A stretch of DNA of 64,000 nt from Bacteroides sp. An322 (lineage in GTDB: Bacteria > Bacteroidota > Bacteroidia > Bacteroidales > Bacteroidaceae). Under the pieces are notes generated by a model, which did not search any database, was not told the origin of the DNA, and was given only the letters and a program-made list of their open reading frames with translations. The stretch spans positions 62,001 to 126,000 of the forward strand of contig NZ_NFIN01000004.1 of the NCBI RefSeq assembly GCF_002161765.1, written 5' to 3'. A program made the translations under genes and the position numbers. Of the stretch, positions 790 to 35,190 are shown piece by piece; within the stretch, counting starts at the first letter, position 1; each line of letters starts with the position of its first letter.

Positions 790-2871
790 TTATTTGAAAC
801 GGGATGTATCCACCGCTTCCCGATGCTTCTCCTGATAACCTCCGAATTTCCACGTAAACGATAAGCCTACGGAACGGTAGCACGAATAATCGTTTGTCAC
901 CCACTGGCGGGCGATGCGGATATACGGGTCGATGCCCGCGGTCTCGAAAATGTCCTTGCACCAAACCGAGAGGATGCAATTCTTATCGGCGAAAGCGTAA
1001 CGCAACGCTACGTCCACATTCCCGCTGGCAGGCAAATCGTACGTGCCTTGATGAGCTTTGCTGCGCACGAAACCATTCAGTGTCAGACGCAAGTCCGGAC
1101 GAGTGGAAAGCGTAACTGTATTGTTCCACACCGCCATGCCGTAAGCGATGCGGCGGTCGAAAGGCATATCATAGAAGTCGGCGTCTTTCTCGCGCGTCCA
1201 TACGCCCATCAGCGTCAAGCGCGAGTCGAGCCATTTCTTTATCTTAAAAGGAACGGAAGCCTGAATGCCCGCCTGCCGTTGGAAATTAAAGTTCAGGTAG
1301 CGGTAGATTTCCACCAAGCGTTCGGGCGACTGATAAAGCGTCTGCGTGAAATAATCTTCCGTATGGCTGAACCATGCGGCAAAAGTATATTTCGACTTCA
1401 GCATATAAATCAGCGTCAGGTTATAGTCTTTCGAAGGCTTCAGCAGCGGATTGCCCTGCACTTCCGAGTAGCCTCCGCCCAGATAAGACACCGCGTCCTG
1501 CACCGCCCAATAATCGGGATAACGCTTGTCGCTGCTGAATGAGAGCTGCACAAGATGGCTGGCGGACGGTTTATACGTAGCCGTCAGGTTCGGATACCAG
1601 TCCCATTCGTTCCACACCGGAGTCTGGTAATGCTCGGCTGCCAGCGAAAAGTCTACCGACAAGTCTTCGCCGAACGATTTGCTGAAGCCCGCATACACAT
1701 TCAGCGTCCGTTCCCTCCGGCGCGAAAACATATCCGAAGGCAATTCTTCATTCCCCGAATACCGCTGGAACGAATTGTCCACGCTCGTCGTATAAACCGC
1801 CCCGTAGTTCAGCCCCCAGCCGTGCTTCAGCTGATGCTCTTGCCCAAGATAAAACTTCCAGGCATTGATGCGCTGCGCGTCTTCGGTATAAAAGTCCATG
1901 CCCGTCCCGTCCATTTCGCTGGAGAGGCGTTGGCTGCCCGGCGCATGATACCATGTAAACTCTGCGCCTGCCTTCAGCCCGAACGGAGCCTGATAGTCCA
2001 GCCGCCCGTTATGAAGCCACGATTCCTGATTGCCCAAGGTCGTCGCCGTCTGCGTGCCCGTGGTGTATTGGTTATAATGGCTCGTGTCGTAACTCCCGTT
2101 GTAGACAAAGCCCAACGTATGGTTCTCGGCAAACTGGTAATCGGCGCCGAGGCGGAACGTATGCGTATGGTTCCGTCCGCGTCCCGTCTCGTGATTGCGG
2201 ACGAGATAGGTTTCGTCCTCCGCCTCTTGCCAATGGCGGGCTTCCTTGTCGGTCGTGTTGTAACTCTTGCCGTGCGTGTGCGAGTAAAGGAAATCCGCCG
2301 AGAGTTTCCCTCCATTATATAATAAGGAGGCACGCTCCTCGAACGAAGCCTCGTGCCGCTGGTCATACTTGGCGAACGCTTCGCCCTGCACCGAACCGGG
2401 GTCGCCGATGCGGTGGCGCAGGCGGACGTTTATCAGCGCGCCCCGCACCTGATAGCGTGCCGGAGCATTGTACATCACTTCTACCCGCTCGATGCGGCTG
2501 GCGGGCATCGACTTCAATAACGAATAAAGCTGCTCGGCGCTCATGTTCGTCACCTTCCCGTCCAAAATGACGGTCACGCCGCGTGCCCCCAACGTCAGTC
2601 CGCCGTTCATCTCCACCACGCCCGGAAGCTCTTTCAACGCATCATATACATTGTCTATCGGTTTTTGCGCAATCATGCGGGGCAGGTCGTATTCCAGCCT
2701 CCCCGGCAATGCCCGGACCACGGGGCGTTCGCCTTCCACCAGCACTTCGGGCAAAGCCTGAAACAAGCTGTCCGTCTGCACGTCGCCCGTCAATAAACTG
2801 TCTACTGCTTCTTGTGCCGGAAGCCCCGCTCCGAAAGCTGCCAGCCCGATAATCAAAATCATTCGTTTCAT
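790..2871 (-). CDS. TonB-plug outer-membrane beta-barrel protein
   Basis: Start placed at the ATG at 2871 because MKRMILIIGLAAFGAGLPAQ is a clean signal peptide; the frame extends 39 bases further upstream without signal character. The mature protein (about 670 residues) has a TonB-dependent-receptor plug (about residues 40-155: LEYDLPRM, DALKELPGV, GVTVILDGK, SRIERVEVMYNAPARY) followed by a long barrel with alternating aromatic strands and a terminal W-K-F-G-G segment. It lacks the N-terminal carboxypeptidase-like domain of SusC proteins and matches the Bacteroidetes 'outer membrane protein beta-barrel family' (PF14905 type). The gene is divergent from the two-component genes at 3285-5493, separated by about 410 bp holding the 40-bp tandem repeat, so it is a plausible target of that system (inference). 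The substrate is unknown. Confidence 0.85.
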   Translation of the reverse strand: MKRMILIIGLAAFGAGLPAQEAVDSLLTGDVQTDSLFQALPEVLVEGERPVVRALPGRLEYDLPRMIAQKPIDNVYDALKELPGVVEMNGGLTLGARGVTVILDGKVTNMSAEQLYSLLKSMPASRIERVEVMYNAPARYQVRGALINVRLRHRIGDPGSVQGEAFAKYDQRHEASFEERASLLYNGGKLSADFLYSHTHGKSYNTTDKEARHWQEAEDETYLVRNHETGRGRNHTHTFRLGADYQFAENHTLGFVYNGSYDTSHYNQYTTGTQTATTLGNQESWLHNGRLDYQAPFGLKAGAEFTWYHAPGSQRLSSEMDGTGMDFYTEDAQRINAWKFYLGQEHQLKHGWGLNYGAVYTTSVDNSFQRYSGNEELPSDMFSRRRERTLNVYAGFSKSFGEDLSVDFSLAAEHYQTPVWNEWDWYPNLTATYKPSASHLVQLSFSSDKRYPDYWAVQDAVSYLGGGYSEVQGNPLLKPSKDYNLTLIYMLKSKYTFAAWFSHTEDYFTQTLYQSPERLVEIYRYLNFNFQRQAGIQASVPFKIKKWLDSRLTLMGVWTREKDADFYDMPFDRRIAYGMAVWNNTVTLSTRPDLRLTLNGFVRSKAHQGTYDLPASGNVDVALRYAFADKNCILSVWCKDIFETAGIDPYIRIARQWVTNDYSCYRSVGLSFTWKFGGYQEKHREAVDTSRFK

Positions 2872-3004
2872 TGTATTTCCGTTTTTGTTTGATACGGCAA
2901 AGTTCGGCATTTCCCGCGGAATCCGCCTTATCTTCCGTCTTACCGAGTGTTACCGGAAGTGTTATTTAGTCTTACCGTTTTCCGCAAGATTGAGCGGAAA
3001 GACC

Positions 3005-3012
3005 TATCTTTG
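3005..3012 (+). promoter_or_regulatory. Bacteroidetes -7 element TATCTTTG
   Basis: TATCTTTG matches the Bacteroidetes TAnnTTTG -7 consensus. The -33 region is poor (TTTTC about 22 bp upstream). Transcription from here would start near 3019, just where the 40-bp repeats begin, giving the histidine kinase mRNA a leader of about 265 nt made almost entirely of repeats. Confidence 0.55.
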
Positions 3013-3020
3013 CCTTGCGA

Positions 3021-3260
3021 AAACGTCCTCCCGATGGGAGCGGCAAATTGCAGCTTGCGAAAACGTCCTCCCGACGGGAGCGGCAAATTGCAGCTTGCGA
3101 AAACGTCCTCCCGACGGCAGCAGCAAATCGCAACCTGCGAAAACGTCCTCCCGACGGCAGCGGCAAATTGCAGCCTGCGAAAACGTCCTCCCGACGGCAG
3201 CGGCAAATTGCAGCTTGCGAAAGCTTCCTGCACGTTGCAGGACGAAATCGCAGAGAAAAA
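3021..3260. repeat. 40-bp tandem repeat, five copies plus one diverged copy
   Basis: Copies with an exact 40-bp period lie at 3021-3060, 3061-3100, 3101-3140, 3141-3180 and 3181-3220; a diverged sixth copy fills 3221-3260. Each unit begins AAACGTCCTCCCGA and ends GCAGCTTGCGA. Copies 1 and 2 hold a perfect CTCCC/GGGAG hairpin with a 3-nt loop; copies 3-5 carry GGCAG, which leaves one mismatch. Copy 6 has different bases but restores a hairpin (TCCTGCA/TGCAGGA). A GCAA-A-TTGC inverted repeat follows each hairpin. The period is not divisible by three, so the open frames seen through it on both strands are by-products. The array lies between a divergent outer-membrane protein gene and the histidine kinase. 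Confidence 0.95.
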
Positions 3261-3284
3261 ACAAACCTAAAAAAGAACCGCCGC

Positions 3285-4793
3285 ATGAAATTGCCCCTGA
3301 AATACATCGCCCTGCTGGTCATCCTCTCGCTGGCGGGCGTATTCGCTTACCAAGCCTATTGGCTGACCAGCCTTTACCGCACCCAGCGGAGCGAGATGGA
3401 AAAGGACATCCGCGAAGCCCTGCGCACGAGCGATTACAACGAAATGATTGCACGCGTCAGGCGGATGCAAAACGATTCGCTGGCACAAGCCGAAGTGACC
3501 GTCTCGACCGGATACGACGACGAACGGGCGTTCACGAAGACCCATACCATCCGAAGCGTCAAGCATGGCGACACCATCCGCGTCTCCATCTGGGAACACA
3601 GTGTAAAAGACACCGTCCCCGCCCCGCAAGCCGCCCTGCAAGCCGACATCGCCTCTATCCTCTTCGAAAACAAAAGCTCGACCGCCGAACTTGCCTCCAA
3701 CTTCCAGCAAGGGCTGCACGCCGCCATGGACGTACTGAGCGATCCCGATTTCGCCGTCTTCGACAGCCTCTTAGCCACCGAACTTCACCGCATCGGCATC
3801 CGCGCCCCTTACCGGCTGATGTACCTGCACCGGGGAAGCACCGCCGATTCGAGCTACACGTTCACCGACACGCTCAACGTCAAAACCACCGGCGGCTACC
3901 TCCCTTCGCCGAAAGCCATTACCTACGATTACAGTTACGACCGGCACGGCAATTGGCTCTACCGGCTCACCTTAGAGCCTATCGAAAGCATCGTGCTCAC
4001 CCAAATGGCAGGCATCCTCACCGCCTCGGCACTGATACTGGTTATCTTGGGGCTTGCGTTCGGCTTCCTCATCCGCACCCTCTTGCGCCAAAAGACGTTG
4101 GAAGAAATGAAAAGCGACTTCACCAACAACATCACCCATGAACTGAAAACCCCTATCGCCGTGGCATACGCTGCGTGCGACGCCCTGCTCAATTTCGGGA
4201 CCGGAACCAACCCTGCTAAACGGGAACGCTACCTACACATCTGCCAAGAACAGCTCCGAAGGCTAAGCGGGCTGGTAGAGCAGATACTCGGCATGTCGAT
4301 GGAACGCCGGAAGACCTTCCGCCTGCACGTAGAGGCCTTCCCGCCCGAAGAGGTCATCGCGCCCCTTATCGAACAGCACAAGCTGAAAGCGGACAAGCCC
4401 GTCGGCATCACCCTCCGCATCGAGCCGGAAGGGCTGGCGGTATGCGCCGACCGCACCCATTTCGGCAACATCGTGAGCAACCTCATCGACAACGCCATTA
4501 AATATTCGCCCGGCGAGGCACGGGTCGAAATAAGATGCCGCACCGAAAACGGCTGGTTCATCCTCTCCGTCCGCGACCAAGGCATCGGCATCCCGCACGA
4601 CAAGCAACGCCACGTGTTCGACAAATTCTACCGTGTGCCTACCGGAAACCTGCACGACGTAAAGGGCTACGGGCTCGGGCTGTATTACGTGAAGACCATG
4701 ACCGAGAAACACGGCGGAACGGTGGAAGTGAAGAGCGAACCGGGACGAGGAAGCGAATTTACGATTAAATTAAGAATGAAGCATGAAAAATGA
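3285..4793 (+). CDS. rprX: Sensor histidine kinase, RprX-like
   Basis: A 502-residue membrane sensor kinase. The ATG at 3285 begins a clean N-terminal anchor (YIALLVILSLAGVFAYQAYW, about residues 7-26); the open frame further upstream is only the tandem repeat read through. A periplasmic region of roughly 200 residues follows, then a second membrane segment (about 240-262). The dimerisation domain carries the phospho-acceptor His285 in ITHELKTP. The ATPase domain shows the N box (NLIDNAIKYSP), G1 (RDQGIGIP) and G2 (GYGLGLYYVK). The 3' end overlaps the response regulator gene by 11 bp, so the two are co-translated. Architecture and pairing match the RprX/RprY family of Bacteroides; the exact orthology is inferred. 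The input signal is unknown. Confidence 0.88.
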   Translation: MKLPLKYIALLVILSLAGVFAYQAYWLTSLYRTQRSEMEKDIREALRTSDYNEMIARVRRMQNDSLAQAEVTVSTGYDDERAFTKTHTIRSVKHGDTIRVSIWEHSVKDTVPAPQAALQADIASILFENKSSTAELASNFQQGLHAAMDVLSDPDFAVFDSLLATELHRIGIRAPYRLMYLHRGSTADSSYTFTDTLNVKTTGGYLPSPKAITYDYSYDRHGNWLYRLTLEPIESIVLTQMAGILTASALILVILGLAFGFLIRTLLRQKTLEEMKSDFTNNITHELKTPIAVAYAACDALLNFGTGTNPAKRERYLHICQEQLRRLSGLVEQILGMSMERRKTFRLHVEAFPPEEVIAPLIEQHKLKADKPVGITLRIEPEGLAVCADRTHFGNIVSNLIDNAIKYSPGEARVEIRCRTENGWFILSVRDQGIGIPHDKQRHVFDKFYRVPTGNLHDVKGYGLGLYYVKTMTEKHGGTVEVKSEPGRGSEFTIKLRMKHEK

Positions 4794-5493
4794 AGAATCA
4801 CTTATCAACGTATTGTTAGTAGAAGACGAAGAGACCCTCGCCCTGATTATCAAAGACACCCTGGAAGGGCAAGGCTTCTTCATCCGCTTGGCAAAAGAAG
4901 GGGAAGAAGGGCTCAGGCAGTTCTTCGAAGAAAAGCCCGACGTGCTGGTGGCGGACGTGATGATGCCCCGCATGGACGGATTCGAAATGGTGCGCCGCAT
5001 CCGACGACAAGACAAGCAGACACCCGTGCTCTTCCTCACCGCCCGCTCTGCCACGAACGATGTGGTGGAAGGCTTCGAATTAGGCGGAAACGATTACCTG
5101 AAAAAGCCGTTCGGGATGCAGGAACTCATCGTGCGCATCAAAGCGCTCTTAGGACGGGCATCCCGTTATCCCGCCTCGGAAAACCAACCTTCCGCAACGG
5201 AATTCGAAATAGGCAGATACCACTTCAACGCCACGACCCAACGCCTTTCGTACCTCGGAAGCGAAACCGAACTTTCGCACCGCGAAAGCGAAATCCTCCG
5301 CCACCTCTGCGAAAACCGGAACGAAGTGACCCCGATGCAAGACATCCTGATAGACCTATGGGGCGATGATACCTTCTTCAACCAGCGCAGCCTGCACGTG
5401 TTCATCACCAAACTCCGCCACAAACTCTCTCGCGACGAACGCATCCGCATCGTGAATGTGCGCGGCATCGGGTATAAATTGATTAGCGGCTGA
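4783..5493 (+). CDS. rprY: OmpR-family response regulator, RprY-like
   Basis: A 236-residue cytoplasmic transcription regulator. The N-terminal receiver domain (about 7-120) has the acidic pocket (VEDEE), the phospho-acceptor Asp58 in VADVMMPRMDG, a Thr in FLTARS and the conserved Lys in YLKKPF. The C-terminal winged helix (about 140-233) has the OmpR-type ELSHRESEILRHLCEN start and the recognition segment RSLHVFITKLRHKL, ending in RIVNVRGIGYKL. It overlaps the 3' end of the kinase gene by 11 bp, which marks it as the cognate partner. Its end faces the transporter gene on the other strand; a palindromic repeat fills the gap. Confidence 0.92.
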   Translation: MKNEESLINVLLVEDEETLALIIKDTLEGQGFFIRLAKEGEEGLRQFFEEKPDVLVADVMMPRMDGFEMVRRIRRQDKQTPVLFLTARSATNDVVEGFELGGNDYLKKPFGMQELIVRIKALLGRASRYPASENQPSATEFEIGRYHFNATTQRLSYLGSETELSHRESEILRHLCENRNEVTPMQDILIDLWGDDTFFNQRSLHVFITKLRHKLSRDERIRIVNVRGIGYKLISG

Positions 5494-16930: not shown

Positions 16931-17147
16931 ACACAGAGACGCAAAGACGCAGAGAATATCGTTAAGAGGAAGCAAAGTTCACTATGAATGTCCGCATTTC
17001 ACCCAATTAATTGTAGGGGCGTATCGTATACGCCCGAATGCACACACCTTATCTACGCGGATGTTTTCAGGGCGTATGCGATACGCCCCTACATTGGCTT
17101 TTTGCGGACATTCATTAAAAAACTTTGCGCTTTTGCGTCTCTGCGTT
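16931..17147. repeat. Iterated-arm palindromic repeat with a second element in its loop
   Basis: The outer left arm is built from ACACAGAG, ACGCAAAG and ACGCAGAG; the outer right arm reads TTTGCGCTTTTGCGTCTCTG then CGTT. Between them is a middle inverted pair (GAATGTCCGCA near 16985 and TGCGGACATTC near 17103), and at the centre the complete GGGGCGTAT double-hairpin element at 17013-17092. It fills the 246-bp gap between aroC and the M20 peptidase gene. Confidence 0.9.
17013..17092. repeat. GGGGCGTAT double-hairpin element, copy 1 (nested)
   Basis: An 80-bp element starting GTAGGGG and ending CCCCTAC. Hairpin 1 is GGGCGTAT-CGT-ATACGCCC and hairpin 2 is GGGCGTAT-GCG-ATACGCCC; about 35 bp (GAATGCA through GATGTTTTCA) join them. 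Relatives lie at 20672-20742, 22685-22754 and 35089-35167, with a single-hairpin version at 61784-61811. Confidence 0.9.
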
Positions 17148-35040: not shown

Positions 35041-35190
35041 AACACAGAGACACAAAGGCACAGAGTTTAATTTATATCCAAATTAGTTGTAGGGGCGTAT
35101 CGCATACGCCCGAATGCAACCACTTATCTATGCGAATGTTTTCAGGGCGTATGCGATACGCCCCTACATTGTTTTTTGCGTCTCTGCGTT
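35041..35190. repeat. Iterated-arm repeat with a GGGGCGTAT element in its loop
   Basis: The outer left arm is AACACAGAGACACAAAGGCA then CAGAG and the outer right arm is TTTTTTGCGTCTCTGCGTTC. The loop holds the complete element 35089-35167. It occupies the gap between nhaC and the Nfn-like gene, ending 15 bp from the latter's stop codon. Confidence 0.88.
35089..35167. repeat. GGGGCGTAT double-hairpin element, copy 4 (nested)
   Basis: A 79-bp copy: GTAGGGGCGTAT, stem 1 GGGCGTAT-CGC-ATACGCCC, centre GAATGCAACC through GAATGTTTTCA, stem 2 GGGCGTAT-GCG-ATACGCCC, end CCCCTAC. Stem 1 has loop CGC instead of the CGT in copies 1 and 3. Confidence 0.9.

Follow-up and report, generated by a model that had tools for sequence, protein, structure and literature searches.

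Upstream of a predicted sensor histidine kinase gene of Bacteroides sp. An322 lies a tandem array of 40-bp units, which raises the question whether the array is private to this kinase or part of something wider, and whether it acts as RNA or as DNA. The first-pass annotation of the window (the whole stretch of 64,000 nucleotides analyzed here) took it for the likely mRNA leader of an RprX-like kinase, with a hairpin in each unit, and named protein-binding sites on one DNA face as an alternative.

Results

The array and the genes beside it

The array (3014..3253, forward strand) consists of six 40-bp units with two stems (dyads) each, as delineated by TRF, a PWM scan, and covariation within its family. 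TRF reported a period of 40 and 5.4 copies at 3014-3229; the PWM scan placed the core starts at 3016, 3056, 3096, 3136, 3176, and 3216, i.e., at a spacing of 40. A unit comprises a 37-nt core and a 3-nt linker, with an outer stem such as TGCGA/TCGCA and an inner stem such as CCTGC/GCAGG. The description as five near-identical units plus a diverged sixth was confirmed: units 1-5 (3016..3212, forward strand) are of the TGCGAAAACGTCCTCCC... type, which is that of an array linked to a DUF6261 gene on contig C18 of the same genome (87% identity over 199 nt), and unit 6 (3216..3252, forward strand; from the array listings) is diverged, with CCTGCA/TGCAGG as inner stem. An 18-base motif, allowing up to three mismatches, occurred five times in the window (0.08 expected), a number reached in none of 100 shuffles. 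By a self-match test at lags of 40 to 43, 4 of 424 segments of 450 nt were positive, all overlapping the kinase array; no tandem of this lag was found by this test in the rest of the window. Upstream, the array is adjoined by a Bacteroides-type -7 box, TATCTTTG (3005..3012, forward strand), recognized from its sequence and from its position directly 5′ of the array in four species; the consensus of such boxes is TAnnTTTG. Two distances had to be corrected: the first unit begins 1-3 nt (rather than about 9 bp) 3′ of the box, and the last core ends at 3252, which leaves 32 nt (rather than about 25 bp) to the kinase ATG at 3285.

The claimed hairpin in each unit held for units 1-2 and unit 6, with predicted folding energies of −13.7 and −16.4 kcal/mol, respectively. 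In units 3-5, GGCAGC results in an inner-stem mismatch, and the predicted fold is weaker (−8.5 to −11.3 kcal/mol) and of a different shape; because of this mismatch, hairpin quality is uneven among the units. Folding of the whole leader is more stable than in 200 shuffles (z −4.1), which is expected of any palindromic array. Within 2885-4793 of the window, several reading frames through the array lack stops, and long spurious ORFs therefore cross it.

On the forward strand, the array is followed by the genes of the sensor histidine kinase (3285..4793; Pfam HisKA and HATPase_c) and of an OmpR-type, RprY-like response regulator (4783..5493; Pfam); a divergent gene for an outer-membrane beta-barrel protein (790..2910, reverse strand; Pfam OMP_b-brl_3) lies on the other side. 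The top NCBIfam model was RprY for the regulator (227 bits versus a cut-off of 370) and PnpS for the kinase (178 bits versus a cut-off of 400). The kinase is thus a HisKA/HATPase protein with an OmpR-type partner, whereas its naming as RprX was not confirmed, as both scores stay under the cut-offs; an RprXY-like pair is possible.

The array at orthologous kinase genes

As anticipated, close relatives carry the array in varying copy number: all four close orthologues of the kinase, that of the window included, have one at the same place, with six copies in the window genome (G000) and 6, 2, and 7 copies in G018, G059, and G025 (kinase identities of 92, 87, and 82%, respectively). The two-copy array of G059 passed by unit match; its lag test value of 0.50 is no pass. 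None of the 12 distant orthologues examined (45-60% identity; a set without G041, whose kinase match is partial) had an array by unit match or lag. In all four species, the array lies directly past the -7-like box, the distance from box to first core being 3-4 nt (window, L055, L067, and L068). G000, G018, and G059 have similar last copies with the common inner stem CCTGCA/TGCAGG, and the remaining copies differ among species. The box-to-gene position was kept while unit sequences changed, and the kinase is the only place with a window-family array found in all four clear carrier genomes of the genus.

In G018, one copy of a GTAG-tagged palindrome is situated between the kinase array and the ATG. 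Such head-to-head palindromes (GTAGGGGCGTATCGCATACGCCC...) constitute a second dispersed repeat, present in the window at 17004-17123 and 35080-35177. Matching pieces numbered 78, 86, 81, and 26 in G000, G018, G025, and G059, respectively (counts over both strands that also take in hits to the rest of the query); none were found in G012 and G002.

Dispersed units of the same family

The window genome contains further arrays on contigs C18 (six copies), C45 (eight), and C66 (five), plus one single copy; units 1-5 at the kinase being of C18 type, transfer or conversion of units between loci has taken place. A covariance model from 20 units had matches in 5 of 61 genus genomes, including G014, which was rejected as a carrier since its one weak match (25.5 bits; L070) was not recovered by PWM. 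G025 gave 76 matches, grouped here into twelve arrays. A second model had matches in at least 5 of 349 genomes of the family, of which G299 and G306 belong to another genus. Absences of the unit from genomes are soft, because part of the first-look candidates was scored (up to 106 per genome in the genus search, at most 18 in the family search). A unit-pattern scan of a genome collection, from which near relatives of the window genome were possibly left out, returned one stretch of a Ruminococcus MAG without a PWM unit.

The unit collection comprised 132 cores, 102 of them distinct, taken from 22 sources. The linker is 3 or 4 nt long in the window family, which results in a period of 40 or 41. 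Among the 20 own-genome units, 87.5% of the cells were paired (76.8% when shuffled, 42-45% when slid) and 26 cells were double-changed (11.9 when shuffled); for 69 units, these values were 89.0% (76.6% and 32-46%) and 109 (42.7), all of them counts that related rows may inflate. Pairs with a double change and further pair types showed no excess over shuffles in either set. The compensatory stem changes in the window family support the earlier suggestion that structure or symmetry matters.

Of 23 distinct window-family loci, 19 lie at most 90 nt past a stop codon, in both orientations, as do 17 of the 19 distinct solo loci, i.e., those without DUF6261; ORFs for this count were called mechanically, and L059 and L064 rest on doubtful ones. 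Between co-directional genes, by our reading, eight arrays are in sense and nine in antisense when L059 is omitted and mixed-strand L110 is counted with the latter. The four distinct arrays linked to DUF6261 are all sense, the solo ones four sense and nine antisense. All five DUF6261-linked arrays of the family are in sense. DUF6261 is encoded at four distinct window-family loci, two of which are preceded by DUF4988. Compared with the kinase locus, the C45 locus keeps its array less stably, with an array in G000 and G059, other sequence in G018 and G025, and a short spacer only in G012. Dispersal of the unit, which had been named as an argument against a leader private to the kinase, was thus observed, including copies linked to DUF6261.

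A common function of the neighboring genes was considered and rejected, those scanned being transporters, glycosidases, biosynthetic, and housekeeping genes (Pfam). So was a replication-strand bias, as the twelve G025 array loci occupy both strands, with near neighbors opposed. At L074 (∼2994-3034), a larger palindrome, TCACGCCGGATT...AATCCGGCGTAAC, encloses the single C45 unit. The unit relatives at L110 and L111 of G306 give matches on both strands and have a paired AAA/TTT in place of the unpaired AAA/RAA loop of the window genus.

Arrays with a period of 40-43 bp upstream of DUF6261 genes

Genes for DUF6261 proteins (PF19775; Pfam) follow the array on C18, the corresponding one in G059, and three arrays of G025. 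In the genus, 16 of 61 genomes had a total of 43 matches to this family, and in the order at least 45 of 392 genomes had matches. When the last 450 nt before each start were tested for self-match (at least 60% over 80 nt), a tandem array with a period of 40-43 was present upstream of 87 of 110 Bacteroidales DUF6261 genes and of 0 of 110 at the other tested periods; 23 of the 110 were without an upstream array by this test. Within the genus, lags of 40-43 were positive upstream of 32 of 43 genes, and every other lag set between 20 and 71 gave 0 of 43. Outside of the genus, the numbers were 55 of the 67 order genes examined (among the matches listed, plus fetched loci) and 0 of 67 elsewhere between lags 16 and 79. 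Arrays downstream of DUF6261 were found at 0 of 43 genes by TRF (genus) and at 3 of 67 by lag (order), the latter compared with 55 upstream (Fisher p 1e-21). The period of the 88 arrays measured (on 600 nt, the count of 87 being based on 450 nt) was 40 in 4, 41 in 55, and 42 in 29. Units are mostly unlike from one DUF6261 gene to another, with some related pairs. In Prevotella nigrescens (NZ_CP082843.1), a 41-bp array of 3.6 copies overlaps the annotated DUF6261 start; a 120-bp tandem repeat of 3.3 copies (L256, 2198-2593; same species) lies in a hypothetical gene adjoining the DUF6261 array.

Of the 61 genus genomes, four clearly carry window-type arrays, and all four belong to the 16 that have DUF6261 (p 0.0035). 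No array of the type at the G018 kinase was found at the sole DUF6261 gene of G018. Against the PDB, the DUF6261 profile had one match (E 0.77) and thus no relative. No other Pfam family was common to more than three of 34 members; Mu-like_Pro was matched in three (best E 0.00036), HEPN_AbiU2 in two, and a winged-helix family in one (E 0.014). Four DUF6261 proteins gave weak matches only against PADLOC and PHROGs (best E 0.034 and 0.021). A phage origin of DUF6261 was rejected after single-protein viral scans without a relative, and a plasmid origin after plasmid searches that gave one Prevotella replicon.

Solo arrays

A second type of 42 bp, CCAACGATCGTTGG, precedes another DUF6261 gene of the window genome, the frame of which is broken. 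Solo relatives of this type lie between what we take, from the sequences, to be KBL/bioF-like and bioG-like genes in G000 and G018, and in G059 a related solo array lies at a contig end, upstream of the bioG-like gene. These arrays (L261, L258, and L259) have the same place and a period of 42, their units are 45-60% alike, and their loci encode no DUF6261.

In 400 kb of the DUF6261-rich genome G545, 23 arrays with a lag of 39-43 were counted, 21 of them without a spanning ORF, compared with 5 arrays not spanned by an ORF over the remaining lags between 25 and 70. The same length of G025 contained two arrays with a lag of 39-43 versus one at other lags, and that of G008 (the sole control genome, which itself has one partial DUF6261 match) one coding-like array with a lag of 39-43 and none without ORF. 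Five of the six DUF6261 genes in the G545 stretch have an upstream array, and 20 of 25 arrays (two of which had been reassigned to other lags, hence 23 above) are at least 1.5 kb away from any DUF6261 gene. Four of the 20 solo units matched a DUF6261-linked unit of their own genome at 65% or more (10 linked units compared), the average best match to units of other genera being 49%; coding-looking arrays were included, and two of the four matching arrays lie in ORFs. Some of the 42-bp lags in G545 accompany 21-bp sub-repeats, and two arrays look coding. Two near-perfect arrays with a period of 44 and no spanning ORF (271549-271845 and 365401-365783 of the G545 stretch) fall just outside of the 40-43 class.

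DNA or RNA

Perfect inverted repeats with arms of at least 6 were found in 47 of 88 units (7.4% of shuffles), and a second dyad 20-21 bp off in 31% of 87 distinct units (8% of shuffles), the shuffles preserving composition only in both cases. Such a half-period offset between two dyads is also how the inner and outer stems are arranged in window-family units. With a period of 41-42 in 84 of 88 arrays, the dyads are in helical phase.

If a sense RNA were under selection, G-U pairs would be tolerated and A-C pairs would not. Across 75 DUF6261-linked arrays, G-T amounted to 114 and A-C to 144 (p 0.07). In the window family, eleven pairs gave G-T 67 versus A-C 52, to which pair 7-37 alone contributed 33 versus 1; without pairs 7-37, 14-30, and 4-40, the numbers were 11 and 19. 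Promoter-like boxes are positioned 5′ of the array in some DUF6261 leaders and 3′ in others: a -7-like box lies between array and ATG in 18 of 88 and at most 80 nt upstream in 9 of 88, so that a universal box before the arrays was rejected. Terminator-like sites between array and ATG occurred in 8 of 88 (1 in composition-only shuffles); no terminator was found between the window array and the kinase. The window had no Rfam match at the gathering threshold; under relaxed settings, the sole array matches in four loci were two L053 stretches to a microRNA family (23.6 versus 60 bits). CRISPR-like, attC-like, and riboswitch readings were dropped, the arrays being without spacers and the window without Rfam match.

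Rather than an RNA leader, the dyads, the lack of a G-T excess, and the boxes on either side favor arrays that act as double-stranded DNA, with dyads spaced by two helical turns and units by four. The array class is best matched by the alternative once mentioned for the window, in which sites about four helical turns apart share one DNA face. A kinase-specific RNA leader or switch was not supported, as the unit is dispersed, other arrays mostly lie just past stop codons in either orientation, and the wider class has no wobble-pair signature.

Discussion

On sequence grounds, the array upstream of the kinase is a solo member, of C18 type, of a class of often dyad-symmetric arrays with a period of 40-43 bp. 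Because length is kept and sequence varies in this class, it suggests an unrecognized DNA-reading system rather than a switch private to the kinase. The class accompanies most of the examined Bacteroidales DUF6261 genes at their upstream side, is dispersed between genes of the same genomes as well, and most likely acts as double-stranded DNA. From dyads at every two turns and units at every four, we infer that a sequence-specific protein would load side by side on one helix face. DUF6261, encoded beside an array of the same type, would be the best candidate for this reader and would control its own promoter; copies elsewhere, e.g., between the promoter-like box and the kinase gene, would be extra sites that could tie a gene to the same protein. 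That a protein loads these period-locked arrays, with DUF6261 as the candidate reader, is about as likely as not. Against this reading speak the 17 of 19 solo window-family loci just past a stop codon, an odd place for operators, the two arrays of the class lag in 400 kb of G025, the G018 kinase array without a counterpart at the sole DUF6261 gene of its genome, the mere 4 of 20 solo arrays of the G545 stretch that resemble a linked unit, the 23 of 110 DUF6261 genes without an array by the lag test, the DUF6261 profile without a PDB relative, and the G-T majority (67 versus 52, through one pair) in the window family. Each DUF6261 paralogue might even read its own freely evolving array, with arrays copied to other loci and the solo copies, among them the one at the kinase, subordinating unrelated genes to that paralogue or organizing the chromosome around it, which is conceivable yet somewhat doubtful. 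A repeat that is free in sequence and fixed in length across an order, and tied to one family, reflects a strong constraint without explanation. The link gives DUF6261, a family of unknown function, a testable role, and the class accounts for a group of intergenic arrays in the Bacteroidales, an order of mostly gut bacteria.

The arrays could instead be REP-like palindromes, selfish or neutral, amplified by an enzyme or by recombination, with the kinase leader as a landing site and any effect on genes incidental. Their dispersal between genes, the 19 of 23 window-family loci at most 90 nt past a stop codon in both orientations, the mosaic arrays with a type common to different loci, the other palindromic repeats in intergenic DNA of the carrier genomes, and the C45 array, absent in G018 and G025 and represented by a short spacer in G012, are all consistent with this. 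We nevertheless consider it unlikely: a selfish repeat need not keep a period of 40-43 despite differing sequences, 87 of 110 DUF6261 genes have an upstream array and few a downstream one, and Y1 transposases were unmatched in G000, G018, and G059.

Rather improbable is an RNA element, i.e., transcribed hairpins that serve as mRNA leader or as type III-like antitoxin RNA with DUF6261 as the toxin. Its anatomy of length-conserved repeats upstream of a gene does resemble type III loci as described in the accessible part of PMC5086642, the stems covary, a -7-like box immediately precedes the array at the kinase, C18, C10, and L063, the five DUF6261-linked window-family arrays are all in sense, and pair 7-37 has G-T 33 versus A-C 1. 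This pair stands against 114 G-T versus 144 A-C in the 75 DUF6261-linked arrays, and the boxes 3′ of the array (18 of 88, versus 9 of 88 upstream), the terminator-like sites in just 8 of 88, the solo arrays in sense (4) and antisense (9), and the window without an Rfam match at the gathering threshold argue in the same direction. That the array is a slippage-prone leader or operator tuning expression of the RprX-like kinase specifically is very improbable, since the unit is dispersed and tied to another gene family and 12 distant orthologues are without it, even though the kinase is the sole common place of the family in all four carrier genomes and its box-to-gene position was kept through changes of the units.

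Comparison with known systems

Tandem operators, iterons, and centromere arrays are helically phased dyads adjoining the gene of their binding protein. The present arrays are like them in having repeated in-phase dyads beside the gene of a presumed binding protein, and unlike them in that the sequence differs within one genome and DUF6261 is without a recognized DNA-binding domain.

REP/RAYT systems, according to the accessible parts of the sources, are made of short palindromes between genes, family members being situated beside their own palindrome type (PMC3733652; PMC6006769), and CGTC repeats are reported in Bacteroidetes (PMC3733652); PMC9426551, as far as accessible, concerns Planctomycetota. 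Like REPtrons and GTAG/CGTC-tagged REPs, the arrays are imperfect palindromes, dispersed, mostly after genes, and of several types per genome, and as in REPtrons a gene family (here DUF6261) lies beside its own repeat type. In contrast to REP/RAYT, they keep a strict tandem period of 40-43, and their partner gene encodes DUF6261 in place of an HUH Y1 transposase; unlike REPs, whose GTAG (or CGTC) tag stands unpaired at one hairpin foot, the DUF6261-linked units listed have, by eye, no common GTAG foot or tag. CGTC adjoins the hairpin in window units 1-5, and compared with the families of CGTC repeats in the accessible part of PMC3733652, the window array is tandemly arranged and has outer stems unlike theirs. 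In G000, G018, and G059, Y1 transposase (PF01797) was not matched, and the Y1 gene of G025 is flanked by another palindrome, at a locus (L093) without a window-type unit; the RAYT definition therefore fails. Mobilization of the arrays by a RAYT was rejected, a Y1 match being absent in three of four carrier genomes. L093 itself (G025, C1, 3112897-3113244), in which AACCTC..GAGGTTGCAGAGTGTGC arrays flank a 150-aa Y1 transposase, resembles a REPtron that has repeats of its own.

In type III toxin-antitoxin loci, the repeats act as pseudoknotted RNA and the toxin is a ToxN-fold endoribonuclease. A protein gene is preceded there by tandem repeats that are conserved in length and free in sequence, and the definition requires a terminator and a ToxN homologue (accessible part of PMC5086642). 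The arrays share with these loci (ToxIN, CptIN, and TenpIN) length-conserved repeats in variable copy number upstream of one gene. They differ in that no ToxN-like protein was recognized by sequence profile or Pfam, there is no general terminator, a -7-like box sometimes lies between array and gene, the dyads are without wobble signature, and many arrays are solo. No earlier account of the DUF6261-linked class was found in the accessible literature on DUF6261 (one Streptococcus paper), Bacteroidales repeats, REP/RAYT, and type III systems. If the proposed reading is true, repeat and protein would have co-evolved outside of the known REP and type III systems.
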